This document shows, piece by piece, positions 18,763 through 50,514 of a DNA stretch of 50,514 nucleotides. The notes under the pieces were generated by a model. It worked only from the letters and a program-made list of their open reading frames with translations. It did no database searches and was not told where the DNA came from. Within the stretch, counting starts at the first letter, position 1, and the number at the start of each line of letters is the position of its first letter. Origin of the DNA: Bacteroidales bacterium (GTDB taxonomy: Bacteria > Bacteroidota > Bacteroidia > Bacteroidales > UBA932); the NCBI GenBank assembly GCA_017445015.1, contig JAFSVL010000040.1, positions 1-50,514 on the forward strand. The letters are read 5' to 3'. The position numbers were made by a program, and so were the translations under genes.

Positions 18763-18803
18763 CAGCGAAGCAACTGATGATTAATGACGCTAAGTATAAT
18801 ATA

Positions 18804-19046
18804 ATGGAATACAAAGAAATAGAAGCCAAGGTGAAGGCGTTTCTGGTTGAAGAACTGGAAATCGACGAAGTGAAAATCACCCCCGATGCGACCCTGAGCG
18901 GCGACCTGGGTATCGACAGCCTTGAAGTCGTGGATGTCGTGGTGCTGGTGGAGAATGAATTCGGCTACAAGATGAAGCCGGAAGACTTCAAAACCCTGAA
19001 GACCTTTGGTCAGTTCTGCGCTTTCCTGGAGGAAAAGGTGGCGTAA
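18804..19046 (+). CDS. acyl carrier protein (aryl-polyene-like locus 1)
   Basis: An 80-residue ACP. The phosphopantetheine site is Ser39 in LGIDSLEVVD. The ATG at 18804 starts the conserved helix MEYKEIEAKVKAF; an upstream ATG at 18777 would add nine unconserved residues. It is acidic and helical, as expected. It heads a five-gene run (acyltransferase, dehydratase, ketosynthase, ketosynthase-like) and is therefore probably a dedicated polyketide or aryl-polyene carrier and not the fatty-acid AcpP. The upstream 108 bp carries no perfect TAnnTTTG box. Confidence 0.92.
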   Translation: MEYKEIEAKVKAFLVEELEIDEVKITPDATLSGDLGIDSLEVVDVVVLVENEFGYKMKPEDFKTLKTFGQFCAFLEEKVA

Positions 19047-19937
19047 ATGGCCTCCTACCGGCATGATAACTGGCGGGGACGTACCGATGGGACGCCCTGG
19101 ATGCAGCGTACGCTGGTGAAAATGCTACGCTTCATTCCCGTAGAATTTATCTATGGGATTGTCGCGCTGGTGATTCCTTTTTACCTCATGTTCGACGCGC
19201 GGGCACGCCGCGCTTCCTGGCAGTTGTTCCGCAGGCGGCTCGGCCGTTCTTTCCTGCGCTCCTTAGGGTCGGTCTATCTCAACGAATTCATGCTCGGACT
19301 GGTGGTCGTGGACCGTTTTGCCAGTTATGCCGGGAAGAAATTCCGTCTCGAAACCTCCGACAAAGAGAATTTCGACCGTCTCTCCGCACAGGAAGAGGGC
19401 TTCGTGCAACTCTTTGCCCATCTGGGCAACTCCGAGATGGCCGGCTATGTTTTCCCTTCCGTCAAGCGGATCCATGTCCTGGTCTATGCCGGTGAAACGG
19501 CGCGGATGATGCAGGGGCGTGAAGAACTGTTTACGCAGAAAAATGTGGAAATGGTGCCTGTGAACGCGGACATGTCCCATATCTTTACGCTGGATGCGGC
19601 CCTTTCCCAAGGCCAGATTGCCAGCATGCCGGCGGACAGGTCTTTCGGCTCGCCCCGTACCGCCTCTTATGATTTTCTCGGTGCTGCCGCGAAATTCCCT
19701 GTCGGACCCTTCCATCTGGCCGTCTCCCGCGACGTTCCGGCTGCGGCCCTGTTCGTGATGAAAACCTCCGTCCGCAGTTATCGCGCCTATCACATTCCCC
19801 TGGTGGATGTGCGCGGGAAGGGCCTGTCCAGGCAAGAGGCAGTGGATGCCCTGATGCGCGACTATGTCGCCCGCCTGGAGGAGATGGTCAGGCAGTATCC
19901 TCAGCAGTGGTTTAATTTCTATGATTTCTGGGCATGA
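19047..19937 (+). CDS. LpxL/HtrB-like lysophospholipid acyltransferase
   Basis: 296 residues. One N-terminal membrane segment (about residues 30-50, FIPVEFIYGIVALVIPFYLMF) is followed by an acyltransferase domain with the catalytic H-x4-E at His125-Glu130 (HLGNSE), as in late Kdo-lipid A acyltransferases. Such enzymes occur in aryl polyene and flexirubin clusters, where they are thought to join the ACP-bound chain to a lipid in the inner membrane. The gene directly abuts the ACP gene (0 bp) and overlaps the dehydratase by 4 nt, supporting that role over lipid A modification. Confidence 0.85.
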   Translation: MASYRHDNWRGRTDGTPWMQRTLVKMLRFIPVEFIYGIVALVIPFYLMFDARARRASWQLFRRRLGRSFLRSLGSVYLNEFMLGLVVVDRFASYAGKKFRLETSDKENFDRLSAQEEGFVQLFAHLGNSEMAGYVFPSVKRIHVLVYAGETARMMQGREELFTQKNVEMVPVNADMSHIFTLDAALSQGQIASMPADRSFGSPRTASYDFLGAAAKFPVGPFHLAVSRDVPAAALFVMKTSVRSYRAYHIPLVDVRGKGLSRQEAVDALMRDYVARLEEMVRQYPQQWFNFYDFWA

Positions 19938-20377
19938 AACCTTTTGAAGATATTCCCGTAGATACCCTGCTGCCCCAGCAGCCGCCTTTCCGTTTCGTGG
20001 ACAGGCTTCTCTACTGCGATGAGCGTCATGCCGAGGTTGAATTTACCGTTCCCGCGGGGGGCGTATTCGTCGCCGGCGCCTGCCTGCAGCCCGGAGGCCT
20101 GGTGGAGCATATGGCCCAGGCCTGTTCGGCCATGACGGGATATATCGCCATCTATATCCGCATTACCCCTGTATCGGTAGGCTATCTCGGGCATGTGCGG
20201 TCCCTGCAGATTTTCCGGCAGCCGTCGGCGGGGGAGCGCCTGCACACCCGTGTGGAGGTCATCGAAGATATTTTCGGCATCCTTATGGCGCGTGTTTCCG
20301 TTTTCTGCGCGGATGAGCCCATTGCGAAAGGGATTCTCAAAACCGCTTCGGCGGCCAAGGAAAATATTGCGGGATGA
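19934..20377 (+). CDS. hotdog-fold 3-hydroxyacyl-ACP dehydratase (ApeI/ApeP-like)
   Basis: 147 residues, single hotdog domain. It begins LLPQQPPFRFVDRLL, as FabZ/FabA-like dehydratases do. The central helix is GGLVEHMAQACSAMTGY instead of the FabZ form; this VEHMAQ variant is like those in aryl polyene clusters. The FabZ GHFP histidine is not obvious, so catalysis probably uses the ApeI-type arrangement. It would form the conjugated double bonds of a polyene by dehydrating 3-hydroxyacyl-ACP. It is coupled by ATGA overlaps on both sides. Confidence 0.85.
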   Translation: MKPFEDIPVDTLLPQQPPFRFVDRLLYCDERHAEVEFTVPAGGVFVAGACLQPGGLVEHMAQACSAMTGYIAIYIRITPVSVGYLGHVRSLQIFRQPSAGERLHTRVEVIEDIFGILMARVSVFCADEPIAKGILKTASAAKENIAG

Positions 20378-21477
20378 AGCGCGTCTGGTGCCTTTCTGAC
20401 AGTATCCTTTCTCCGCTCGGGCGGGGAACGGCGGAGAATTTTTCCGCCCTGTCCGGGGGGCGCAGCGGAATCCGCCGTTACGAAGCGGGCAGTTTCGGCG
20501 CGGGGCAGGCCTTTTGCGCCTCCCTCTTCGATCGGAGCGGCGCGGACAGCTCCGGAAAACCGCTGTTTGAACAGGTGCTGGAAACCTGTACGCGGGATGC
20601 CATAGGGCGCAGCGGCATCGATGCCTCATCGCCGCGCGTGCTCTTCGTCCTCTCGACGACGAAGGGCGATATCGAATGTATCGGTTCCCACCCGGAAAAT
20701 CTGCCGCTTTGCGTGCCGGCAGCGCATCTGGCAGCGGCTTTTCACAATCCGAATCTGCCGCTGGTCGTGTCCAATGCCTGTATTTCGGGACTGGCGGCGC
20801 TCCTGCAGGCGCAGCGGCTTCTCCGACTGGGGCTGTATGATTATGCCGTGGTCGCAGGGGCGGATGTACATTCGATTTTCACCATTTCCGGTTTTCAGTC
20901 GCTGGGTGCGCTTTCCGGCCGGCCCTGCAAGCCCTTCGATGCTTCGCGTGACGGGATGAACCTTGGCGACGGGGCGGCCTGTATGGTGCTTTCCTCCGGT
21001 GATTCGGTCCCCGAGGGTGCCTGGGAGCTGGTCTGCGGTGCCGTGCGCAATGATGCCAATCACATTTCCGGGCCTTCCCGGACCGGAGAAGGCAGTTTCA
21101 ACTGCCTGCGGGCCGTGCTGCACGAATGTGAGGTTGACGAACTGGCCCTGGTGAGCGTACACGGTACGGCGACACGCTATAACGACGAGATGGAAAGCAT
21201 CGCGCTGGCGCGGGCCGGACTTTCCGCTTTGCCCGTATGCGCCTTCAAAGGGGCCCTGGGCCATACGATGGGCGCGGCGGGAATCCTTGAAAGCATCCTT
21301 TGCATGCGGGCGCTGGATGCGGGACAAATCCCGCCGACGCCGGGCTATGAGACATGCGGGGTGTCGTTTCCCGTGAACGTTTCCGAGCAGACGCGCACCG
21401 CCTCCGGGCGGGCCTTTGTCAAGATGCTGTCCGGATTCGGCGGCTGCAATGCCGCCATGCTTTTCAGAAAAGGATGA
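20374..21477 (+). CDS. beta-ketoacyl-ACP synthase, catalytic
   Basis: 367 residues, thiolase fold. The triad is complete: Cys136 (SNACISG), His263 (VHGTAT) and His297 (GHTMGAAG). It should extend the ACP-bound chain by decarboxylative condensation with malonyl-ACP. It is shorter than FabF and more divergent at the N-terminus, like ketosynthases of aryl polyene clusters. It is followed at a 4-nt overlap by a smaller, Cys-less ketosynthase relative, the usual KS / chain-length-factor pairing. Confidence 0.92.
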   Translation: MKRVWCLSDSILSPLGRGTAENFSALSGGRSGIRRYEAGSFGAGQAFCASLFDRSGADSSGKPLFEQVLETCTRDAIGRSGIDASSPRVLFVLSTTKGDIECIGSHPENLPLCVPAAHLAAAFHNPNLPLVVSNACISGLAALLQAQRLLRLGLYDYAVVAGADVHSIFTISGFQSLGALSGRPCKPFDASRDGMNLGDGAACMVLSSGDSVPEGAWELVCGAVRNDANHISGPSRTGEGSFNCLRAVLHECEVDELALVSVHGTATRYNDEMESIALARAGLSALPVCAFKGALGHTMGAAGILESILCMRALDAGQIPPTPGYETCGVSFPVNVSEQTRTASGRAFVKMLSGFGGCNAAMLFRKG

Positions 21478-21986
21478 AAGTATTGAAATCCATACGCCTG
21501 ACGCCGGAAACGGCCGGAACGGACAATCTGGCCGTGCTATACCGCAGCCTGGGTTGCGATTATCCCAAGTTCTTCAAGATGGACCGCTATTGCAAACTGG
21601 GTTTTCTCTCATCGGAAATGCTGTTGCAGGATGCGCCGGACCGCTTTATCCCCAGGGAGGACCGGGCCGTGGCCGTCTTTACCCGCAGCGGATGTATGGA
21701 GAATGACCAGGCCTATTTCAAGACGGTGCAGCCCGGCGCCTATTTTCCCAGCCCCGCCCTCTTTGTCTATACGCTTCCGAATACCATCACTGGCGAAATC
21801 GCCATCCGGAACCACTATAAGGGCGATACCAGCGCCTTTGTCCTGCCTGCGTACGATGCGGACGCCATCGCGGCGCAGATGGACGCCCTCTTTTTGGACG
21901 GGACGACCCGCTCTGCGCTCTGCCTGTGGCTGGATTGCCCTCCGGACGGCCCGTTCGAGGCCGTCGCGTCCATCGTCACCCCCTGA
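21474..21986 (+). CDS. ketosynthase-like protein without active-site Cys
   Basis: 170 residues corresponding to the N-terminal half of a ketosynthase. The segment PALFVYTLPNTITGEIAIRN matches the dimer-interface region of ketosynthases, but where the active Cys would follow the sequence reads KGDTSAFVL and has none. This suits a chain-length-factor-like or scaffold partner for the KS encoded just upstream. The ATG at 21474 overlaps the KS stop (ATGA); a longer frame from 21354 lies within the KS gene and is rejected. It ends 9 bp before the convergent oadB. Confidence 0.78.
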   Translation: MKVLKSIRLTPETAGTDNLAVLYRSLGCDYPKFFKMDRYCKLGFLSSEMLLQDAPDRFIPREDRAVAVFTRSGCMENDQAYFKTVQPGAYFPSPALFVYTLPNTITGEIAIRNHYKGDTSAFVLPAYDADAIAAQMDALFLDGTTRSALCLWLDCPPDGPFEAVASIVTP

Positions 21987-37882: not shown

Positions 37883-37902
37883 CGGACTTTGATTGAGAGT
37901 GA

Positions 37903-37910
37903 CAAAGATA
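37903..37910 (-). promoter_or_regulatory. -7 element for DUF4290-ftsK operon
   Basis: A perfect TATCTTTG (37910 down to 37903) lies 20 bp before the DUF4290 ATG. The -33 box is unclear. Confidence 0.5.
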
Positions 37911-37924
37911 ACGAAAAAAATTCA

Positions 37925-37932
37925 TACATTTG
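37925..37932 (+). promoter_or_regulatory. -7 element for the kinase-PqqD-ABC cassette
   Basis: A perfect TAnnTTTG (TACATTTG) lies at 37925-37932, 20 bp before the ATG at 37953. An upstream ATG at 37948 gives only Met-Glu-stop and overlaps the true start (ATGGAATGA), which could act as a tiny leader. The -33 box is weak. It faces the ftsK-operon element only 14 bp away. Confidence 0.5.
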
Positions 37933-37952
37933 TAAGTTGAAACAAAAATGGA

Positions 37953-38834
37953 ATGACAAAATCCTATCAAGTCGCCGGACACGTTTTTAACCTTTGTCTT
38001 CCCGATGATTTTCCCTTCTGGGACGGGCTGGATGCCTATCGCCCCTTTGAGGTGCCCCTGGATGCGGCACCGGCCTTCACGCTGGAAATCACGGAAGAGC
38101 CCGTTGAGAGCGAGGGGATGGAAAAAATGTTCGACGCGCCGACGGAGGATGGGGAAACCGTCATCAAACTCTATCGCGGCGCGCAGACCTGGGTATTTGA
38201 AATGTCCCCCGACGCCCGTGTGCGCACCGTCGCACGCCTGGCGGCGAATGCTGATTTCAGCCGCGGGAAATTATACTTCTGCGCCCATTCACGCAGGGCG
38301 GAACTTTTTTCCGTCAATAATGCGCTGATGCTCCTCTTTGCTTTCCGTACGGCCGGCATGGGCACGCTGGAAATGCATGCGTCCGTCATCATGAACGGCG
38401 GCAGGGCCTTCCTCTTCCTGGCAAAGAGCGGTACCGGAAAAAGCACCCACAGCCAGCTCTGGCTCAAAAATGTCCCGGGCAGCGAATTGCTCAATGACGA
38501 CAATCCCATCGTGCGCGTCCATCCGGAGGACGGGAGCGTCAAGGTATATGGTTCCCCCTGGAGCGGCAAGACGCCTTGTTATAAGAATCTGGTGGCCGAC
38601 GCCGGTGCCTTCGTACAGATCCGCCGTTGTCCGGAAAACAAGATTTCGAAATTGTCGTTATTCGAATCCTATGTGCTGCTCTATACCTCGTCGTCGGGCC
38701 TGAAGACGGACAGCGCCATGGCGGACGGCCTTCACGCGACGATGGAATCCATCGCCGTGAACTGTCCCTGCTACGTGCTCGACTGCCGTCCTGACGACGA
38801 AGCGGCCATGGTCTGTTCCCAAGCGGTCCTATAG
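37953..38834 (+). CDS. HPr-kinase/PEPCK-like nucleotide-binding protein
   Basis: 293 residues. After a 150-residue N-terminal domain of no known type comes a P-loop, FLAKSGTGKSTHS (Lys163), then NDDNP (Asp182-Asp183, the expected metal/base aspartates of HPr kinases) and GSPWSGKTP, a motif shared by HPrK and PEP carboxykinase relatives. Such kinases occur in lasso-peptide and other RiPP loci, where some phosphorylate the peptide. It heads a run with S26-like, PqqD and ABC genes. The substrate could be a peptide, or the STAS protein encoded 4 kb downstream. The catalytic machinery looks complete; the function is not established. Confidence 0.8.
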   Translation: MTKSYQVAGHVFNLCLPDDFPFWDGLDAYRPFEVPLDAAPAFTLEITEEPVESEGMEKMFDAPTEDGETVIKLYRGAQTWVFEMSPDARVRTVARLAANADFSRGKLYFCAHSRRAELFSVNNALMLLFAFRTAGMGTLEMHASVIMNGGRAFLFLAKSGTGKSTHSQLWLKNVPGSELLNDDNPIVRVHPEDGSVKVYGSPWSGKTPCYKNLVADAGAFVQIRRCPENKISKLSLFESYVLLYTSSSGLKTDSAMADGLHATMESIAVNCPCYVLDCRPDDEAAMVCSQAVL

Positions 38835-38837
38835 GTG

Positions 38838-39326
38838 ATGGAGAAGACGCATAAACTCATTCTGCCCAACGCGGAACTGCTCGGCGAGGTGGTCCGCCTG
38901 CTTGCCGCGGGGAAGGAAGTCATCCTTTCCACCAAAGGCGCAAGCATGATGCCGTTCATCCATACGAACCGGGACAGCGTGATGCTGGTCCGCCGGGACC
39001 GATTGCAGGTGGGCGATATCGCCCTTGGCGAAATTGCCCGCGGCCGCTACGTGCTGCACCGCATCGCGGCCATCGACGGCGAGAAGGTGACCTTGCGCGG
39101 GGACGGGAATCTCCGGGGGACGGAACGCTGCCGCCTGGACCACATCTATGGCGTCGCCACGCAGATCATCCGTCCCGACGGGAAGACCATCGATGCGGAA
39201 TCGCCCCGGTTCAAGCGGCGCGCACGGCGCTGGAATGCCCTGCCGGTCCCCGTCAGGCATGTGTTCCTTGCACTCTACCGCCGTATGCTCGGCATCCCAA
39301 GAAATATCAATCAAATCCAAGAATAG
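38838..39326 (+). CDS. S24/S26-type peptidase-like protein
   Basis: 162 residues without a clear membrane anchor at the N-terminus. Nucleophile Ser36 lies in KGASMMPFI, and the second signal-peptidase box is GRYVLHRI. The residue before Arg75 is His74, as in SipW/ER-type signal peptidases, which use a Ser-His arrangement instead of Ser-Lys. It would cleave a leader or signal from a partner of this cassette. ATG 38838 follows the kinase stop by 3 nt; the PqqD gene begins on the next base after its stop. Confidence 0.78.
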   Translation: MEKTHKLILPNAELLGEVVRLLAAGKEVILSTKGASMMPFIHTNRDSVMLVRRDRLQVGDIALGEIARGRYVLHRIAAIDGEKVTLRGDGNLRGTERCRLDHIYGVATQIIRPDGKTIDAESPRFKRRARRWNALPVPVRHVFLALYRRMLGIPRNINQIQE

Positions 39327-39596
39327 ATGAGAACCGTAGAAGGATTCAGACTCAGGCCCCTCGGCGCTGAGTTCATTGTGACCGGAGAAAGCATCAAGCA
39401 GGTCAATTTCAATAAGATGATCTCCCTCAATGAAAGTGCCGCCTATCTCTGGCGTGAAGTGGAGGGGAAAGACTTCAGCGTGGACGACCTGGCGGACCTG
39501 CTGGTAGCGCGTTACGAAATCGACCGTGAAACCGCCCTCAAGGATTCCGGAGCCATTGCTGAAAAGTGGATTGAAGCGGGAATCGTCGAGGCTTAG
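39327..39596 (+). CDS. PqqD-like protein (RiPP recognition element fold)
   Basis: 89 residues with the PqqD winged-helix pattern: N-terminal strands (GFRLRPLGAEFIV), MISLNESAAYLWREVEGKDFSVDDLADLL and a final helix. PqqD domains bind the leader of ribosomal peptides and present it to modifying enzymes. Here it stands alone between a peptidase-like and an ABC exporter gene. No radical-SAM, cyclodehydratase or transglutaminase partner is in the window, so the modification may be made by the kinase-like protein. It abuts the S26-like gene and lies 6 nt before the ABC gene. Confidence 0.85.
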   Translation: MRTVEGFRLRPLGAEFIVTGESIKQVNFNKMISLNESAAYLWREVEGKDFSVDDLADLLVARYEIDRETALKDSGAIAEKWIEAGIVEA

Positions 39597-39602
39597 CTGC
39601 CG

Positions 39603-41294
39603 ATGAGGAATTTCCGTTCCTGCCTGCAGTCCCTCTGGCGCAGGATGCGCCATGTGCGGCCGAAACTCGCGCTGAGCGTGGGTATCGGGCTGCTGAGCGT
39701 TTCCGCGTCGCTGGGTTTTGTCTGGGCCTCAAAGCGCGTAGTGGATATCGCTACCGGGAATATTGACGCCTCCTTCGGGCGCGCCGTGGCCCTGATGGCC
39801 GGTATCATGCTCTGCGAAATCCTTTTCCGGACGGTGGAGCGCTGGTGGAACGGTTATATTACCGTCGATACGCAGAACCGCTTGCGGGCCTCCCTCTTCG
39901 GGCGCGTGATGTGCAGCGTGTGGCAGGGACGGGAAAAAATGCACAGCGGCGATACCGTCAACCGGCTTGAGGAAGATATCCGCGTCGGCGTCGATTTTAT
40001 CTGTTCGACGGTTCCGGAATGTATCGTGACGCTGGTGCAGCTGCTCTCCGCGGCGGCGTTTCTCTTCGTCCTGTCGCCGTCGCTGGCCTGGATCCTGCTG
40101 CTCATCATGCCCGCCGCCCTGCTTGGAAGCCGGCTCTTTTTCCGCAGGATGCGTCACATCACCGGACAGATCAGGGCGGGGGACAGTGCCGTGCAGGGCT
40201 TTATGCAGGAGAACCTGCAGCACCGCATGCTTATCCGGACCCTGTCAGGTACGCAGGGAGTCCTGCGGAAACTCGACGCGCTGCAGGCCTATGTGCGCCA
40301 GCGCACCGTCAGCCGTCTGGGTTACGGCGCCGTATCCCGCCTGTTCATCAGTGCGGGTTTTGCCGCGGGGTACGCCGTCGCCTTTTTCTGGGGGGCTTTC
40401 GGCCTGAAAGACGGGACGGTGACCTATGGTATGATGGTAGCATTCCTGCAACTGGTAAGCCGCGTGCAGCGCCCGATGGCCGATATTACCCGGCATATCC
40501 CGTCGTTTATCCGGGCGCTTGCATCCGAAGAACGCCTGATGGAACTGGAAGAACTCGAACAGGAGGAGGAAGAAGAACCCGTCCGTTTCAAGGGGGCTCC
40601 CGGCCTGCGTGTCTCCGGGCTGGGATACCGTTACCCCGATGCCGTGAGGCCCGTACTGGAAGGCTTGGATTTTGATTTCAAACCCGGGAGCCTGACCGTC
40701 GTCACCGGTCCGACGGGGGCGGGGAAGAGTACGCTTACGCGCATTCTGCTGGGCCTGTTGAAGCCTGTTTCCGGCAGGGTTGAACTGTATCCCGCCGAGG
40801 GAGACAGTACTCCCGCCGCTGCTCCGGGCCCCGGTACGCGTTGCAACTTCATGTATGTCCCGCAGGGCAATTCCCTGATGAGCGGGACCGTGCGCGGGAA
40901 CCTTCTGCTTGCGGATCCGCAAGCCGACGACGCGCGTCTCAAGGAGGTTCTGCACATCGCGGCGGCGGATTTCGTCTTTTCCCTGCCGCAGGGACTGGAC
41001 ACCCCCTGTGCTGAAATCGGCGGGGGGCTCAGCGAAGGTCAGGCCCAGCGCATCGCGATCGCCCGGGCACTCCTCCGTCCCGGCGGCATCCTGATCCTGG
41101 ACGAAGCGACATCGGCCCTCGACGCCGGGACGGAGGAGCGCCTGCTGGAAATGATGGCCGGGCGGTACAAGGGCCTGAAAACGATTATCTGCATCACGCA
41201 CAGGGAGGCGGTTTCCCGCCTTGCGGATGTGGAACTTGCGATTCCGGACATCCTGCACAAAGAGAAGGTATGGCAAAGATTAGCAGCAGGATAG
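39603..41294 (+). CDS. ABC exporter, fused permease and ATPase
   Basis: 563 residues, a half-transporter of the type I exporter class. Six membrane helices span roughly residues 20-310. The nucleotide-binding domain has Walker A GPTGAGKST (Lys375), signature LSEGQAQR, Walker B ILILDEATSAL and the H-loop ITHRE. There is no N-terminal C39 peptidase domain, so any leader cleavage must come from elsewhere, possibly the S24/S26-like neighbour. It is probably a homodimer that exports the product of the cassette. Its 3' end overlaps the phosphatase gene by 25 nt. Confidence 0.92.
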   Translation: MRNFRSCLQSLWRRMRHVRPKLALSVGIGLLSVSASLGFVWASKRVVDIATGNIDASFGRAVALMAGIMLCEILFRTVERWWNGYITVDTQNRLRASLFGRVMCSVWQGREKMHSGDTVNRLEEDIRVGVDFICSTVPECIVTLVQLLSAAAFLFVLSPSLAWILLLIMPAALLGSRLFFRRMRHITGQIRAGDSAVQGFMQENLQHRMLIRTLSGTQGVLRKLDALQAYVRQRTVSRLGYGAVSRLFISAGFAAGYAVAFFWGAFGLKDGTVTYGMMVAFLQLVSRVQRPMADITRHIPSFIRALASEERLMELEELEQEEEEEPVRFKGAPGLRVSGLGYRYPDAVRPVLEGLDFDFKPGSLTVVTGPTGAGKSTLTRILLGLLKPVSGRVELYPAEGDSTPAAAPGPGTRCNFMYVPQGNSLMSGTVRGNLLLADPQADDARLKEVLHIAAADFVFSLPQGLDTPCAEIGGGLSEGQAQRIAIARALLRPGGILILDEATSALDAGTEERLLEMMAGRYKGLKTIICITHREAVSRLADVELAIPDILHKEKVWQRLAAG

Positions 41295-42949
41295 CCCGGA
41301 TCGGAATTGTTGTCATCGCCGCGCTGATGGTGGAGACCGTTGCGCTCATCCAATACTTCAGTGTGCGGCGCGTCATCGAGGACGACAACTTTGTCCGGTC
41401 CCGGATCGTCTTGGGGGCGATGCGGGATGAGGTAAGCCACAAACTGGAACTTGTGGAACTGACCATGCAGGAGAATCAGCGGAATATCCGGCAGGCCCTC
41501 GGAAGGCCCGATTCCCTGTTCAGGGCCGTCGAGCACCTGATTGACGACAATCCGATCATCGTGGGAGGCTGCCTGGCCTTTATTCCGGATTATTACCCCT
41601 CGCGCGGACGCCTTTTCGAACCTTATGTCGCTAAGAATGAAAAGGGTTTTCATGCCGAACAAATTGCAAGTCCGCATCACGATTATACGCTGAATCCGGC
41701 CTACATCCAAGTGATGGAAGGGCATGGCCCGGTCTGGTCGGATCCTTATTTGTACGGTGATTCTTCGCCCAGGAGCCTGACGACGTATTCCTTTCCGGTG
41801 ACGGACCCGGCGGGGAAGACCGTCGCCGTCTGCGGGCTGGATGTCGATCTGTCCTGGCTGGGCGATGTGCTCAATGCGCGGCAGCATTTCCGCTCGTCCT
41901 TCGCGCTATTGCTGACGGAAGACGGAAAACTCGTGGCCGGACCTCCGGCAGGCAGGACGCCGGAGAGAGAGGTGTTACGGGTGCTGGATTACCTTTCCGG
42001 CGGCCGTCTGGACAAGCGTTTTGCCGCGGTTCCGTCCATCCGGCTCGAGAAGGCGCCTCACTGGCAGTTGGTGCAGGTGTATTACCGGAACGAGCTTTAT
42101 GCCCCGCTGCGCAAGATGCATCTGCTGCATCTCTCTTTGATCCTGATCGGGCTGCTGATGCTCCTGCTGATGATCAACCGCTATGCCCGCAATGAACAGA
42201 AACTCTATGAGGCCGGGATCGAACAGGCCCGTATCGGCAGTGAACTGGCGGTTGCCGGCCGGATACAGGCTTCCATGCTTCCGAAAATCTTCCCGGACGG
42301 AGTGTATGGTGTCCTTGCTCCGGCGCGGGAAGTGGGCGGGGACCTATATGACTGCTTCCTGCGGGACGGCAAGCTTTTCTTCTGCATCGGCGATGTCAGC
42401 GGGAAGGGAGTGCCGTCGGCCATGATCATGTCAAAGGTCCATTCCCTTTTCCGGGTCCTCTCGGAACGGGAAGACAGTCCGGCGCTGATCGCCGGGCACT
42501 TGAACCAGCTGGCTTGCAGGAACAATGAAACCAACGCCTTTGTGACCTTCTTTTTGGGCATCCTGGATCCGCAGGACGGTGCGCTGGTTTATTGCAACGC
42601 CGGTCATGACCGCCCCGTATGGTTGAACGGTGATACGGTATCCCTGCTTCCTGCCGAGTCCAACCTGCCCCTCGGGGTTTTCCCGGATATTTCCTATGTG
42701 GAGCAATCCTGCCTCCTGAAGGAAGGCGACGGGCTTTTCTTATATACCGACGGGCTCACGGAAGCCCGGAATCCGGAGTATAAGCTGTTTATGCGGGAAC
42801 GGATGCTGGCGGAACTTTCACGCTGCCGGGAACTCCCGGCCCGGGCATTGGTCGAAGCCATGCTTGCGGCGGTCGGGCAATTCGTAGCCGGCGCCCCGCA
42901 GAGCGACGATCTGACGATGCTGTATATTTCAAGAAAATCAATAGTATGA
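41270..42949 (+). CDS. membrane sensor SpoIIE/RsbU-type PP2C phosphatase
   Basis: 559 residues. Helix one (about 8-28) and helix two (about 285-303) flank a 250-residue extracytoplasmic sensor resembling a Cache domain. No HAMP is evident; a short coiled-coil linker leads to the PP2C domain. The metal-binding aspartates are all present: Asp358 (VGGDLYD), Asp375 (IGDVSGKG), Asp494 (YTDGLTEA) and Asp546-547 (SDDLT). It should dephosphorylate a Ser/Thr-phosphorylated STAS protein, most simply the one encoded next. It is translationally overlapped with the ABC gene, tying signal sensing to transport. Confidence 0.9.
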   Translation: MAKISSRIARIGIVVIAALMVETVALIQYFSVRRVIEDDNFVRSRIVLGAMRDEVSHKLELVELTMQENQRNIRQALGRPDSLFRAVEHLIDDNPIIVGGCLAFIPDYYPSRGRLFEPYVAKNEKGFHAEQIASPHHDYTLNPAYIQVMEGHGPVWSDPYLYGDSSPRSLTTYSFPVTDPAGKTVAVCGLDVDLSWLGDVLNARQHFRSSFALLLTEDGKLVAGPPAGRTPEREVLRVLDYLSGGRLDKRFAAVPSIRLEKAPHWQLVQVYYRNELYAPLRKMHLLHLSLILIGLLMLLLMINRYARNEQKLYEAGIEQARIGSELAVAGRIQASMLPKIFPDGVYGVLAPAREVGGDLYDCFLRDGKLFFCIGDVSGKGVPSAMIMSKVHSLFRVLSEREDSPALIAGHLNQLACRNNETNAFVTFFLGILDPQDGALVYCNAGHDRPVWLNGDTVSLLPAESNLPLGVFPDISYVEQSCLLKEGDGLFLYTDGLTEARNPEYKLFMRERMLAELSRCRELPARALVEAMLAAVGQFVAGAPQSDDLTMLYISRKSIV

Positions 42950-43248
42950 AAACAACCATTCAAGAAACGGACGACAAGATTGTCGCCATCCTTTCCGGAG
43001 AATTGGACACTGCGGCTGCACAGGAAACGGAAGAAGCGCTGCAACCCCTGCTGGACAGCCGGGGTAGGGAGGTCATCATTGATTGTACCGAACTGGAATA
43101 CATCGCCTCCAGCGGCCTGCGCATCCTGTTGGGAATCCTCAAGGAGGCCAAGGCTGCCGGAAGCCGTGTCGTGCTGAAGAATGTCAACGACATGATCCGC
43201 GATGTGATGGTCATCACGGGTCTCATCCGTATTTTTGAATTCGAATAA
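42946..43248 (+). CDS. STAS-domain protein (anti-sigma-factor antagonist-like)
   Basis: 100 residues, a single STAS fold. The phosphorylation loop reads EYIASSGLR: Ser55 corresponds to the serine phosphorylated in SpoIIAA, while the usual preceding aspartate is Ala54. It overlaps the phosphatase gene (ATGA), so it is the natural substrate. No SpoIIAB/RsbW-type kinase is encoded in the window, which leaves the kinase open. The gene ends the cassette and converges with the M49-like gene 15 bp away. Confidence 0.9.
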   Translation: MKTTIQETDDKIVAILSGELDTAAAQETEEALQPLLDSRGREVIIDCTELEYIASSGLRILLGILKEAKAAGSRVVLKNVNDMIRDVMVITGLIRIFEFE

Positions 43249-46606: not shown

Positions 46607-46864
46607 ATGCAAGAACTTATCAAGGAACTTAAGCTTCACATGATTGAAGCGCTGAACCTCGAGGGGATGACCCCGGAGGATATTGACGACAATGCGCCGC
46701 TTTTCGGCGAAGGCCTGGGGCTGGATTCCATCGACGTGCTGGAACTCATCGTGGTACTCGAAAAGAACTACGGCATCAAACTCTCTTCGCCCCAGGAAGG
46801 AAAGAAAGTCTTTTCCAGCGTGGCTGCGCTCGCGCAGTTCGTTAGTGATTCACGCACGAAATAG
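46607..46864 (+). CDS. acyl carrier protein (aryl-polyene-like locus 2)
   Basis: 85 residues; the phosphopantetheine site is Ser41 in LGLDSIDVLEL. It is distinct from the ACP at 18804 (DSL, 80 residues), so the window encodes two dedicated carriers, as aryl polyene clusters usually do. ATG 46607 was chosen over an earlier in-frame ATG at 46523, which lies inside the divergent promoter and transporter start. The ketosynthase follows directly. Confidence 0.93.
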   Translation: MQELIKELKLHMIEALNLEGMTPEDIDDNAPLFGEGLGLDSIDVLELIVVLEKNYGIKLSSPQEGKKVFSSVAALAQFVSDSRTK

Positions 46865-47995
46865 ATGTCCTGCCGCATCCTGATAACGGGCTTCGGCGTC
46901 GTCTCTTCGATTGGCCGCGACAAGTGGGAATGTCTCTCGTCGCTGCGTTCGGGACGGCGTGCCCTGGCCCTGCCGCATTATCTGCAGACGGAACTGCGCC
47001 TTCCGGTGGGGGAGGTGGATACTCCCAACCGTCCGGGCGTTCCGCGTACCGTGCTTTTGGGTACGATGGCCTTGCAGGAAGCGGTGGACCAGGCCGGGCT
47101 TGGGGCTGCCGAACTTGCCGGGGCCGCCCTCGTCTCCGGAACGACGGTCGGCGGGATGGATATCACGGAAGCGACTTTCCGCAACTATAGGGGAACGCAT
47201 GACTGCGGTTCCACGACAGAGGATATCGCCGATGCCGTCGGCGGTTTTTCCATGGCGACGACCCTTTCCACGGCCTGTTCTTCGGCGGCCAACGCCCTGA
47301 TGCTCGGTGCGGAACTGATTCGCGCGGGCAAGGCGGACATTGTCGCGGCAGGCGGCAGCGAATGCCTGTCGGATTATCATCTGAACGGCTTTCATTCCCT
47401 GATGATCCTGGATGCGGAGCCCTGCCGTCCCTTCGACCGGACCCGGGCGGGGCTGAATCTTGGAGAAGGGGCGGCATTCCTGATCCTGGAGAGCGAAGCG
47501 TCGGCTGCAAGGCGCGGAGCGACGCCGGTCGCGGAACTGGCCGGTTATGCCAACGCCTGCGACGCTTTTCACCAGACCGCCTCATCCCCGGACGGCGAGG
47601 GCGCTTTCCTGGCCATGCAGGGGGCCTTGCGGCGGGCGGGCCTGCAGCCCGGAGATGTCGATTATGTGAACGCGCACGGCACCGGTACGCCCAATAACGA
47701 TGCCAGCGAAAGCGCCGCGCTGCGTCGTATCTTCGGGGAAAAAATGCCGCCGGTATCCTCCACCAAAGGCTTTACGGGCCATACCACCAGCGCTTCCGGT
47801 TCTATCGAGGCCGCATTCTGCCTGCTGGCGATGCAGCATTCCTTCCTTCCGGCCAATGCCGGTTGGCAGGAAGCCGATCCGGACTGCATCGTGCCCTGTA
47901 CCGCCCTCGGAAAGCCCGCTCCGGTGAACGTGGCGCTCTGCAACGCCTTCGGCTTCGGCGGAAATGATTCTTCCTTCATCCTGAAAAAACGATGA
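46865..47995 (+). CDS. beta-ketoacyl-ACP synthase (FabF/ApeO-like)
   Basis: 376 residues with a complete Cys-His-His triad: Cys138 (STACSS), His271 (NAHGTGTPNND) and His306 (GHTTSASG). It is closer to classical FabF than the ketosynthase at 20374. It condenses malonyl-ACP with the growing chain. It is coupled to the ACP upstream (adjacent) and to the ketosynthase-like partner downstream (4-nt overlap). Confidence 0.94.
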   Translation: MSCRILITGFGVVSSIGRDKWECLSSLRSGRRALALPHYLQTELRLPVGEVDTPNRPGVPRTVLLGTMALQEAVDQAGLGAAELAGAALVSGTTVGGMDITEATFRNYRGTHDCGSTTEDIADAVGGFSMATTLSTACSSAANALMLGAELIRAGKADIVAAGGSECLSDYHLNGFHSLMILDAEPCRPFDRTRAGLNLGEGAAFLILESEASAARRGATPVAELAGYANACDAFHQTASSPDGEGAFLAMQGALRRAGLQPGDVDYVNAHGTGTPNNDASESAALRRIFGEKMPPVSSTKGFTGHTTSASGSIEAAFCLLAMQHSFLPANAGWQEADPDCIVPCTALGKPAPVNVALCNAFGFGGNDSSFILKKR

Positions 47996-48693
47996 TACGG
48001 AAAGTGTACATACGGTCGTTCTGCGTCCTGAAACCCGGGGCGCCGGATCCGGATTTCAAGCCGCTGCTGACGATGATGGAGGCGCGCCGGATGACGCCGC
48101 TGATGAAGCGTGCGGTCTATACGGCGTCGCAGGCGCTCGCAGGAGCCGCCCTGGCCTGTCCGCAGGCCATTATCTGCGGCACGCAGTGGGGCTGCCTGGT
48201 GAATACCGAGGCTTTCTTTGCCGCTTTGCACGGTCTGGATGACCGGGCTCCCAGCCCTACGCATTTTATGCAGTCCACCCATAACACCCTGGCCTCCCTG
48301 CTGGGCATCCGCCTGAAGTGTCACGGCTATAATGCAACCTATTCCCATTCGGAGATTTCCTTCGAAAGCGCCCTGCTTGACGCTTTCCTGCAGATCCGCT
48401 CCGGTGCGCTTGATAATGCGCTGGTGGGGGCTTACGAGGAAATGCCGCCGTTTTTCGCTGAAATGTTCCGGGTACAGGCCGACCTTGCCGCCGCATTCGT
48501 GCTCAGCGCGTCCCCGCAGGATGCCCTTGCCGTGCTGGAAGATGTGCAGCTTATGCGCGGAAAACCCGCCTGCGGCGCGCCTGACCCCGCGGCGCTTTCC
48601 CTGTCGGAAGTTTTGCCCTGCAGCGGTACCGTTGAACTGCACGGCGGTGGGGAGGGCCGTTCCCAATCTTTGATACGCCTATGTGGAAATTGA
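47992..48693 (+). CDS. ketosynthase-like chain-length-factor protein (no active Cys)
   Basis: 233 residues, N-terminal half of the thiolase fold (Ketoacyl-synt_2 type). The PTHFMQSTHNTLASLLGI and GYNATYSHSEISFESALLDA blocks are typical of this group, in which the active Cys position is occupied by other residues. Such proteins pair with a catalytic ketosynthase in aryl polyene clusters. It overlaps the KS gene by 4 nt and the small membrane gene by 13 nt. Confidence 0.85.
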   Translation: MIRKVYIRSFCVLKPGAPDPDFKPLLTMMEARRMTPLMKRAVYTASQALAGAALACPQAIICGTQWGCLVNTEAFFAALHGLDDRAPSPTHFMQSTHNTLASLLGIRLKCHGYNATYSHSEISFESALLDAFLQIRSGALDNALVGAYEEMPPFFAEMFRVQADLAAAFVLSASPQDALAVLEDVQLMRGKPACGAPDPAALSLSEVLPCSGTVELHGGGEGRSQSLIRLCGN

Positions 48694-49034
48694 TATCTCT
48701 CAGCCTGTTGCAGAGTCTTTTGCTGAGCGGAGGACAGGTGCTCCTCAAACTGGGACTCATCAAGTCCGGTCCGTTCAGATGGACGGCGGAATTCTTCCGT
48801 TCCCAGCTCACCAACTGGTGGTTCCCCGCCTGCGGACTTTCGTTTACCCTCGCCGGGATACTCTGGTTCTACCTGTTGAAGCATTATCCTTTCAGTCTTG
48901 CCTATACGCTTTCCTGCATCAGTTATGTTTTCGGCATGGTGGCGGCCACGCTGGTGTTTCATGAGCAGGTTTACTGGACCCAATGGCTTGGCGTGCTGCT
49001 CATCATGGCGGGCTGTGCCCTGATCGTCAAATGA
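48681..49034 (+). CDS. small SMR/EamA-like membrane protein
   Basis: 117 residues with four membrane helices. It resembles one half of an EamA transporter or an SMR/ArnE-type flippase subunit (GGQVLLKLGLIKSG start; LAYTLSCISYVFGMVAATLVFHE). In this locus it could flip a lipid-linked intermediate across the inner membrane. A dimer or a partner subunit would be needed. It overlaps the LolA-like gene by 4 nt. Confidence 0.82.
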   Translation: MWKLISLSLLQSLLLSGGQVLLKLGLIKSGPFRWTAEFFRSQLTNWWFPACGLSFTLAGILWFYLLKHYPFSLAYTLSCISYVFGMVAATLVFHEQVYWTQWLGVLLIMAGCALIVK

Positions 49035-49531
49035 AACCGGTCTTTTTCATTCTGCTCGGCCTGCTGTCCTGTTCAAGGGCGGCCTTTGCACTGGAGGCCC
49101 TTTCCCGTGCGGAGGCCGATGCCCTTTGCGCACGCATTGAAACGGCCCTCCGGCCCCCGCAGACGGCCGGGTACCGCCTCATCCGGCATTCGGATCTGCT
49201 GGAACATGAGCTCGAAAGCAGCGGAACCCTCGAAATCCCCGAAGCGGGCGTCATCCGCCTGCACCAGCAGGCGCCCGAGCCGCGGGAGACCGTGCTGGAT
49301 GCCGCCTCATCCCGCTTTCCCGTGCCGGAACGGCTGTTGGACCCCAGACTGTTCCGCATCGAATGTTTTGATGAAGGCGGGAATTATCTGCTTGTGCTCG
49401 TCCCGCTTCGCCGGGACCTCTCCCGGATTGTGGGCAGCGTGGAACTCCGTACGGACGCCTGCGGAGAAAAATTGAAGAAAATCCGTCTGAATGCACCTGA
49501 CGGAGGTTTTACCCTGCTGGAAATCCAGTGA
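49031..49531 (+). CDS. LolA-like periplasmic carrier of the polyene locus
   Basis: 166 residues with a signal peptide (PVFFILLGLLSCSRAAFA) and a LolA-type body (ESSGTLEIPEAGVIRLHQ; LVLVPLRRDLSRIVGSVEL). LolA-like proteins are a regular part of aryl polyene clusters (ApeL), thought to carry the lipid product through the periplasm. ATG 49031 overlaps the previous stop (ATGA); a longer frame inside the upstream gene is rejected. Weakly conserved, so recognised partly from position. Confidence 0.72.
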   Translation: MKPVFFILLGLLSCSRAAFALEALSRAEADALCARIETALRPPQTAGYRLIRHSDLLEHELESSGTLEIPEAGVIRLHQQAPEPRETVLDAASSRFPVPERLLDPRLFRIECFDEGGNYLLVLVPLRRDLSRIVGSVELRTDACGEKLKKIRLNAPDGGFTLLEIQ

Positions 49532-50268
49532 ACCCGCTACCCTCATATTGTGTGCTGGTCCCCGTGTATAACAACGCGGGGACGATTGTGGACGTTCTCC
49601 GGCGGGCGCTTTCCCTCTGTCAAAGCGTGATTGTGGTCTGTGACGGCTGTACGGACGGTACGCCGGAGTGCATCGCGGAAGCGGCCCTGCCGGTGGTAGT
49701 CCTGTCCTATCCCAAAAACAAGGGAAAGGGCGCTGCCCTGCGCCTGGGTTTTTCGTACGCGCGCGCCCGCGGATATGATTATGCTGTTACCGTCGATGCG
49801 GACGGACAGCACTTCCCTGAAGATATCCCGCTGCTGCTGGACGCGATAGCGGAATCTCCCGGTGCGATGGCAGTCGGGTCCCGACGGCTCGATGCGGAAA
49901 ATATGCCTTCGGGCAATACCTTTGCCAACCGTTTTTCGAATTTTCAGTTTACGGTCAACACCGGCGTGCGGCTGCCGGATACCCAGACCGGCTTCCGCGC
50001 CTGGCCGCTGAAGGCGCTCCCGCCGCTGTGGATGGTCCCTTCGCGCTATGAGGCGGAACTGGCGATGCTGGTGCTCTGCGCCTGGCGCGGCGTAAAACTC
50101 ATCCCCGTTCCCGTCCGGGTGCATTATCCGCCGCATGGGGAGCGTATCAGCCATTTCCGCCCCTTCGCGGACTTCAGCCGCATTTTCATCCTGAACTGCA
50201 TCCTGTTCGCCACATCGCTCGTCTATGGATGGCCGCGGACGCTGTTGCGCAAAGCCTTCCGCCGATGA
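49528..50268 (+). CDS. family 2 glycosyltransferase
   Basis: 246 residues, GT-A fold. VLVPVYNNAGTI at the N-terminus, CDGCTDGT, and VDADGQH (the DxD nucleotide-sugar/metal motif) are clear, and DTQTGFRAW corresponds to the acceptor region. It resembles dolichyl-phosphate-mannose-synthase-type enzymes and the GT2 of aryl polyene clusters, which would attach a head group to the lipid. It starts with GTG overlapping the previous stop (GTGA) and overlaps the exporter gene by 4 nt. Confidence 0.92.
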   Translation: MNPLPSYCVLVPVYNNAGTIVDVLRRALSLCQSVIVVCDGCTDGTPECIAEAALPVVVLSYPKNKGKGAALRLGFSYARARGYDYAVTVDADGQHFPEDIPLLLDAIAESPGAMAVGSRRLDAENMPSGNTFANRFSNFQFTVNTGVRLPDTQTGFRAWPLKALPPLWMVPSRYEAELAMLVLCAWRGVKLIPVPVRVHYPPHGERISHFRPFADFSRIFILNCILFATSLVYGWPRTLLRKAFRR

Positions 50269-50514
50269 GGACGTTGATACTGAAAGTGTATGATTTCCTG
50301 AGCCGGCACAAAAAATGGGCGGTGCTGGGGCTGGTGGCGGCGCTCGTTTTGAGCGCCCTGTCCGCCCTGCGTCTGGATTACGATGAGGATATCAGCGCTT
50401 TCCTGCCTTCCGATCCGCAGACGGAACAGTATCGTTCTGTGTATGAACGGATGGGGGTTTCCGACCGCATTGCCGTATTTTTCAGTGCCCGGGAGGGCAG
50501 CGGCTGCACCGTCC
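50265..50514 (+). CDS. MMPL/RND-family exporter, N-terminal fragment
   Basis: The first 83 codons of a gene cut by the window end. The start MRTLILKVYDFL is followed by a membrane helix (KKWAVLGLVAALVLSALSAL) and the early periplasmic motif DYDEDISAFLPSDPQTEQY, typical of MMPL proteins. In aryl polyene clusters an MMPL exporter (ApeM) moves the product to the outer membrane. The full protein is expected to exceed 700 residues. Confidence 0.88.
   Translation, partial: MRTLILKVYDFLSRHKKWAVLGLVAALVLSALSALRLDYDEDISAFLPSDPQTEQYRSVYERMGVSDRIAVFFSAREGSGCTV

Follow-up and report, generated by a model that had tools for sequence, protein, structure and literature searches.

A probable enzyme module of the linear polyphosphorylated peptide type in Bacteroidales, and a dispersed family of YxxP peptides as its most likely precursors

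The window analysed here is the whole 50,514-nucleotide stretch, contig C90 (JAFSVL010000040.1) of a 2.3-Mb assembly that is 79.75% complete and whose nearest named relatives are Bacteroidales. It carries six plus-strand genes at 37953-43248. The first four (37953-41294) encode an HprK-like kinase, a signal-peptidase-like protease, a stand-alone PqqD-type recognition element (RRE) for ribosomally synthesized and post-translationally modified peptides (RiPPs), and an ATP-binding cassette (ABC) exporter; the last two encode a SpoIIE-type phosphatase and a STAS protein. These four make up a module that much of the genus retains and that also occurs in other Bacteroidales families. We think it probable that this module is the trans-acting enzyme core of a RiPP pathway like that of the Linear Polyphosphorylated Peptides (LPPs), acting on scattered peptides with a YxxP motif. 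As for the precursors, which the gene run lacks, the most likely candidates are short peptides with YxxP leaders whose genes are dispersed over the genome. The enzymes are so identified because of their sequences and a published Bacillota system, and the peptides are proposed as substrates because of their motif, their genomic position and their co-occurrence with the RRE.

LPPs are RiPPs of Bacillota, known from the lpp cluster of Paenibacillus alginolyticus (PMC13381572, Nat Commun, May 2026). The lpp enzymes are an HprK-like kinase, LppK, which places several phosphates on core Ser3; an RRE, LppB, whose binding to the leader is nearly abolished by N33A and weakened by D70A; a SipW-like peptidase, LppS (S29, H68, D93), whose cleavage is aided by LppB; an NTP transferase, LppN; and an MsbA-like exporter, LppD. 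YxxP is the motif that the RREs read. Judged by their sequences, the four window genes are the LPP gene set minus the NTP transferase, which a Pfam scan did not find in the window run, and LPP is the best match. Shared features are the HprK-like kinase, an archaeal-type/SipW signal-peptidase-like protease with Ser, His and Asp, a discrete RRE with Asn and Asp, an MsbA-like exporter without a C39 domain, YxxP leaders and the lack of a cyclase; some relatives of the cassette also have the NTP transferase or polysaccharide neighbours. The window cassette differs in being in Bacteroidales and in lacking both LppN and a linked precursor, and the precursors proposed here are dispersed and mostly stand before lipoprotein genes. 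The authors describe LPPs as restricted to Bacillota and their role as unknown. An earlier note on this DNA had put the cassette forward as a candidate undescribed one. The enzyme set is already described in Bacillota, whereas its presence in Bacteroidales, and dispersed peptides linked to lipoproteins, were not found in the open-access literature searched, including passages of PMC10352776, PMC7533575 and PMC12710340.

How good are the protein identities? The kinase is below the Pfam cut-off (PEPCK_ATP, E 0.02), and its profile finds PEPCK (E 1.5e-4) and the HPr kinase 1ko7 (E 0.0012) in the PDB, with generic P-loop matches to ABC proteins ranking above them. Its H142, P-loop S159-x-x-G-K163 and D182-D183 are kept in 123-124 of 125 aligned sequences (alignment A1). 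The peptidase is also below the Pfam cut-off (S24, E 0.11), and its profile has SEC11A as its top PDB relative (E 1.6e-6); its sequence, with a triad S37-H75-D90 that is kept in 95-96 of 96 sequences (alignment A2), indicates the Ser-His-Asp type and not the Ser-Lys type. This reading frame has 163 residues from a GTG at 38835 or, alternatively, 162 from an ATG at 38838. The PqqD profile finds the lasso peptide B1 protein TfuB1 (6jx3, E 1.9e-6) and, weakly, LppB itself (9x8z, E 0.015); through this weak match N35 and D73 align with LppB N33 and D70. N35 is kept in 120 of 120 sequences and D73 in 117 of 120. Pfam recognizes ABC_membrane and ABC_tran but no C39 peptidase domain in the exporter, which matches ABCB-type exporters in the PDB.

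Conservation in relatives was followed from the kinase. A scan of genome contigs gave 330 kinase loci, the best 80 of which were kept; one of these (L046) had no kinase call, leaving 79. Within 6 kb of the kinase and on its strand, PqqD is present at 65 loci, S24 at 57, ABC at 42, NTP_transf_5 at nine, SpoIIE at one (L032) and STAS at none. The corresponding counts for the 61 loci with at least 6 kb downstream are 51, 45, 36, 6, 1 and 0. Exactly ABC, PqqD and S24 accompany the kinase at 39 of the 79 loci, and the same three plus SpoIIE at one more; a divergent DUF4290 gene stands beside the kinase, as in the window, at 14. Eleven loci have the kinase but none of the six counted partners. All five LPP-type genes, NTP_transf_5 included, occur together at L118, L126 and L127 in the genus and at L132, L133 and L275 in other families, the NTP_transf_5 of L133 being confirmed in Pfam as PF14907. 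In a class-wide search the kinase was found in 20 of 296 genomes; PqqD of the canonical type is in 65 of 91 genus genomes and in 16 of 247 genomes of the order. The earlier note's proposal of a RiPP-like maturation and export module of kinase, peptidase, PqqD and exporter therefore holds up, as these four are kept together in relatives, while its extension to SpoIIE and STAS does not. At one locus (L065:9248-9974) two genes that by eye resemble type II toxin-antitoxin genes split the cassette between S24 and the kinase; they were dismissed as precursors, and look like an insertion.

Where are the precursors? Profile searches found no precursor-like reading frame inside the six-gene run and no match to the peptide family anywhere on contig C90, and a scan of the window for YxxP-type precursors gave only motif matches, all unlike that family. 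A precursor within or flanking the cassette was ruled out on these grounds, there being no room for one and no peptide match on the contig. The earlier note's statement that no precursor is present is thus correct for the cassette but not for the genome, in which a precursor-like peptide family is found elsewhere. Short reading frames with [KR]-x-Y-x-x-P lie beside PqqD, kinase or S24 at six loci of other families (L133, L136, L137, L139, L159 and L166). A profile built from ten rows, two of them own-genome peptides (A4, E<=0.1), gave 364 matches in 77 of the 92 genus genomes, some of them A4's own rows, with up to 17 in one genome. A reversed decoy gave five matches in four of the 92 genomes, although the decoy was reversed A5, whereas the 364 matches came from A4. 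The window's own genome has at least 14 ATG-started YxxP peptides, on contigs C15, C33, C39, C53, C62, C70, C78 and C91, and peptides on C15 and C39 have nearly the same core though they are unlinked. No family was recognized for the five and seven peptides tried in Pfam and NCBIfam. In the own genome too, at L175:1507-1632 (G000:C6), a YxxP frame upstream of a lipoprotein gene has no ATG before the motif, and is possibly decayed or has an unusual start. As a separate observation, L160:10320-10780 has four near-identical YxxP peptides of 25-27 residues in tandem, about 100-145 nt apart, with kinase, S24 and NTP_transf_5 nearby.

The peptides share a pattern of residues. Over 84 distinct peptides the consensus is YxxPxxxVxExxxEx[VG][IL][CA]xS; a Ser lies 19 residues after the Tyr in 70 of them and one residue further in most others, a frequency that is partly due to profile selection. 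The segment after the Ser has a mean length of about 18 residues and is acidic (24.5% Asp plus Glu versus 2.8% Lys plus Arg), and 71 of the 84 peptides have an aromatic residue within the last five positions. A third-position excess in peptide pairs is biased, the pairs having been picked by protein similarity.

The peptide genes also share a genomic position. Seventy peptide loci were scored, a set that omits L177 (a duplicate of L173), L184 and L203 and includes L180, L197 and L236, which were scored on the wrong reading frame and were dropped from the set of 84. A protein with a lipobox starts between -60 and +250 nt downstream at 63 of the 70, versus 328 of 1566 random genes (p 3e-33); this baseline was obtained by the same several-start procedure as the test, and replaces an earlier one-start baseline of 180/1644. 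The Ser at +19 is present at 57 of the 70 loci. The fimbrillin-like family Mfa_like_1 is found among the partner lipoproteins, above the cut-off at L173 and just below it at L158 and L176. In the reverse direction, a YxxP peptide is upstream of six of nine own-genome Mfa_like_1 genes, at an uncertain distance in one case; the list of nine is incomplete, as a C15 lipoprotein that another Pfam check placed above the cut-off is absent from it. Among the 14 own-genome peptides there is one, on C15 at 86 kb, that is not followed by a lipoprotein gene. In another genome (L256, G599:C10:151900-155100) a YxxP peptide is in frame with a lipoprotein signal sequence in a single reading frame of 369 residues, either a fusion or a lost stop.

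Peptides and RRE co-occur across genomes. For the genus, with the own genome left out, the mean number of peptides per genome is 4.84 with canonical PqqD (n=64), 2.11 with divergent PqqD only (n=9) and 1.76 with no PqqD match (n=17); canonical and PqqD-less genomes differ with p 1.8e-4. Among genomes at least 88% complete the means are 5.43 (n=35) and 0.40 (n=5), with p 7.7e-4. The order sample comprised 247 genomes chosen by a 90% completeness criterion, the own genome excepted, and was searched with profile A5 at E<=0.01. Peptides are present in 11 of these genomes, canonical PqqD, defined as an A6 match of at least 60 bits, in 16 and both in nine (p 7e-11); the 60-bit limit was chosen after seeing the table. 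Outside the genus, 7 of 14 genomes with canonical PqqD have peptides versus 2 of 231 others (p 1.2e-8), in six families. When any PqqD match at E<=0.001 is accepted, the split of the order sample is 10 of 55 versus 1 of 192 (p 1.4e-6). The clearest case is L261 (G587), from another genus, where a peptide, a lipoprotein, the kinase, S24 and PqqD lie in one plus-strand run; the exporter gene follows after about 1 kb, on the plus strand as well, and the Ser of this peptide is at +20.

What might the pathway look like? Short YxxP-leader precursors would come from genes at many separate places on the chromosome. The PqqD-type RRE would bind the leader, Asn35 and Asp73 reading its Pro and Tyr much as in LppB, and the HprK-like kinase would phosphorylate a core Ser, for which the Ser at Tyr+19 is the best candidate. 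The SEC11/SipW-type protease would then cleave close to the conserved [CA]-x-Ser and so free the peptide of its leader, and the ABC exporter would carry the acidic core over the inner membrane, where each peptide may work with the surface lipoprotein encoded behind it. Because the precursor genes mostly stand directly before lipoprotein genes, the product probably acts with these surface proteins, some of which are fimbrillin-like.

A number of observations weigh against this proposal. The window itself has no precursor, and the link to the peptides rests on motif, co-occurrence and other genomes, none of it experimental. The LPP consensus is YxxPxVLxHQxIxFETxxS, whereas the peptides here lack the HQ..FET part. 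Among same-strand reading frames within 300 nt of cassettes, the YxxP spacing was found five times and other spacings 0-4 times, so that this control is weak, and a first profile (A3) found three unlinked places in the own genome with individually weak E values of 0.02-0.13. Many partner lipoproteins, such as those of L174, L175, L178, L200 and L261, match no Pfam family. The co-occurrence is also imperfect in both directions. In the genus, 7 of the 64 genomes with canonical PqqD have no peptide, and 10 of the 17 without PqqD have at least one match (seven have none), G077 (80% complete) having 11 and G086 (55%) five. In the order, 7 of the 16 genomes with canonical PqqD have no peptide at E<=0.01, and two genomes have peptides without canonical PqqD, one of which (G532) has no PqqD match of any kind. 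Finally, the p values are uncorrected for kinship, and those at genus level overstate the evidence.

Might the cassette serve the export of exopolysaccharide or capsule instead, with PqqD, kinase and NTP_transf_5 modifying a peptide or carrier within the polysaccharide machinery, and have nothing to do with the scattered YxxP peptides? At L155 the order S24-PqqD-NTP_transf_5-ABC-kinase is followed by a Wza-like gene (PF02563) and a Wzc-like gene, as checked in Pfam; L157 resembles it, and at L104, L148, L151 and L154 PqqD-NTP_transf_5 stands, by eye, beside Wza/Wzc-like genes. Bacillota LPP clusters are found in capsule loci too (PMC13381572). The neighbours of the window cassette, however, are DUF4290, an M49-like gene and an AspT-type transporter, which are not polysaccharide genes, and those of other genus cassettes are mostly unannotated. 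PqqD and YxxP peptides co-occur across families, moreover, and the exopolysaccharide-like locus L154 itself has a YxxP peptide, so that we regard a purely polysaccharide role as unlikely. The peptides could also be viewed as translational leaders or attenuators of the downstream lipoproteins, their amino acid motif having nothing to do with an RRE, and it is true that these small frames stand immediately before the lipoprotein gene and in many cases overlap its start. Such an explanation sits poorly with the strong residue pattern, in which Tyr, Pro and Ser keep a fixed spacing (in part through profile selection), with YxxP being a motif that RREs read in the LPP paper, with the peptide-RRE co-occurrence in other families and with the single run of L261; we find it quite improbable.

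A further possibility is a single six-gene system whose PDC-SpoIIE phosphatase and STAS protein would sense or control how peptides are modified or exported; it is close to what the earlier note had proposed as a phosphatase-STAS switch wired to the cassette. The six reading frames of the window overlap or abut, SpoIIE follows the exporter at L032, and in G077 a SpoIIE-STAS pair comes immediately before a YxxP peptide gene and its lipoprotein gene (L281:4486-7074). SpoIIE homologs are common, being present in 61 of the 92 genus genomes (E<=1e-30). Yet of the 48 genus genomes with both a SpoIIE homolog and canonical PqqD, only one besides the window carries both on the same contig at a distance of 20 kb or less (G021, 8 kb apart). 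In the seven PqqD-bearing genomes whose full-length SpoIIE homologs come closest (51-55% identity), these homologs are on contigs other than that of PqqD. With SpoIIE linked at one of the 79 kinase loci and in one of the 48 genomes, and STAS at none of the loci, the pair was rejected as part of the module and is taken to be a neighbour added locally; we give very little credence to a six-gene system.

Other known systems fit less well than LPP. Phosphorylated lasso peptides of the paeninodin type share the HprK-like kinase, the PqqD-type B1 protein, the ABC exporter and the YxxP leader, and lasso systems of this type also have an NTP transferase and leaders with YxxP or WxxP. A lasso pathway was rejected, as neither a lasso cyclase (Asn_synthase-type, PF00733) nor a B2 protease (Transglut_core3, PF13471) had a match in the own genome, an assembly that is about 80% complete. 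In contrast to exporters of C39/double-Gly bacteriocins, the window ABC protein has no C39 peptidase domain. SynChlorMet systems have an HprK-like kinase beside a PqqD-like protein. The window kinase is far below both relevant NCBIfam cut-offs (TIGR04249, ScmC, 20 bits against 125; TIGR04352, HprK_rel_A, 18.1 bits against 200), and Pfam found no radical SAM match among the nine proteins scanned. In prochlorosin-type lanthipeptides one set of modification enzymes serves many dispersed precursors with shared leaders, an arrangement with different chemistry; the precursors proposed here are in addition coupled to lipoprotein genes. A defence system was also set aside: PADLOC matched the exporter just to generic models of the ABC/ATPase type and had no match for the other five proteins. 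Asparagine-synthase-like genes with short W-x-x-P peptides at L169, L170 and L171, of which only L169 was checked in Pfam, may be lasso clusters of Bacteroidia.

The layout of the cassette is given in Table 1. The tight packing and domain types that the earlier note had described are confirmed by the reading-frame list, by a codon-usage gene caller, which chose the same six genes, and by Pfam. The junctions measure 0, 0, +6, -25 and -4 nt. The run is flanked on the upstream side by a divergent minus-strand DUF4290 gene (PF14123), 70 nt away, and on the downstream side by a convergent M49-like gene, 15 nt away. In Pfam the phosphatase has an MCP-like PDC sensor and SpoIIE (173 bits), and the STAS protein scores 65 bits. 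Elsewhere in the window (18777-21986 and 46607-50513) two blocks of small acyl-carrier-like and ketosynthase-like genes, seen by eye, resemble a fatty-acid or aryl-polyene-type pathway.

Table 1. Features of the cassette and its border in the window
Feature	Position	Strand	Basis
Presumed promoter region of the cassette	37883..37952		Gap of 70 nt that separates the kinase gene from the divergent DUF4290 gene
HprK/PEPCK-like kinase (LppK-like), 293 aa	37953..38834	+	Alignment, motif columns, PDB profile matches, weak ScmC/HprK_rel_A matches
Putative SEC11/SipW-type serine peptidase (LppS-like)	38835..39326	+	Alignment, SEC11A as top PDB match, triad
Stand-alone PqqD-type RRE (LppB-like), 89 aa	39327..39596	+	PF05402, 57.8 bits; profile alignment to 6jx3/9x8z
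ABC exporter, MsbA/CydC-like, C39-less (LppD-like), 563 aa	39603..41294	+	Pfam, NCBIfam, PDB ABCB-type exporters
PDC/dCache-SpoIIE phosphatase, 559 aa; neighbour outside the conserved module	41270..42949	+	Pfam
STAS-domain protein, anti-anti-sigma type, 100 aa; neighbour outside the conserved module	42946..43248	+	PF01740, TIGR00377

What would an LPP-like module of this kind mean for its hosts? A tentative suggestion, which we put forward as possible and no more firmly than that, is that a single LPP-like machine acts in trans on dispersed precursors, and that every precursor is encoded together with a surface lipoprotein of its own, in many cases a fimbrillin-like one. The exported, phosphorylated, leader-free acidic peptides would then be partners of these proteins, as caps, linkers, chaperones or signals, and would make up a new class of RiPPs, companions of surface proteins. 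Many genomes of one Bacteroidales genus have an LPP-type gene set, and so do members of several other families, whereas the published account restricts LPPs to Bacillota. The probable substrates, standing one by one before surface lipoprotein genes, point to a role for what has been an orphan RiPP chemistry. They would, in addition, be a case of RiPP precursors encoded all over a genome and far from their enzymes, where they escape searches for linked clusters.

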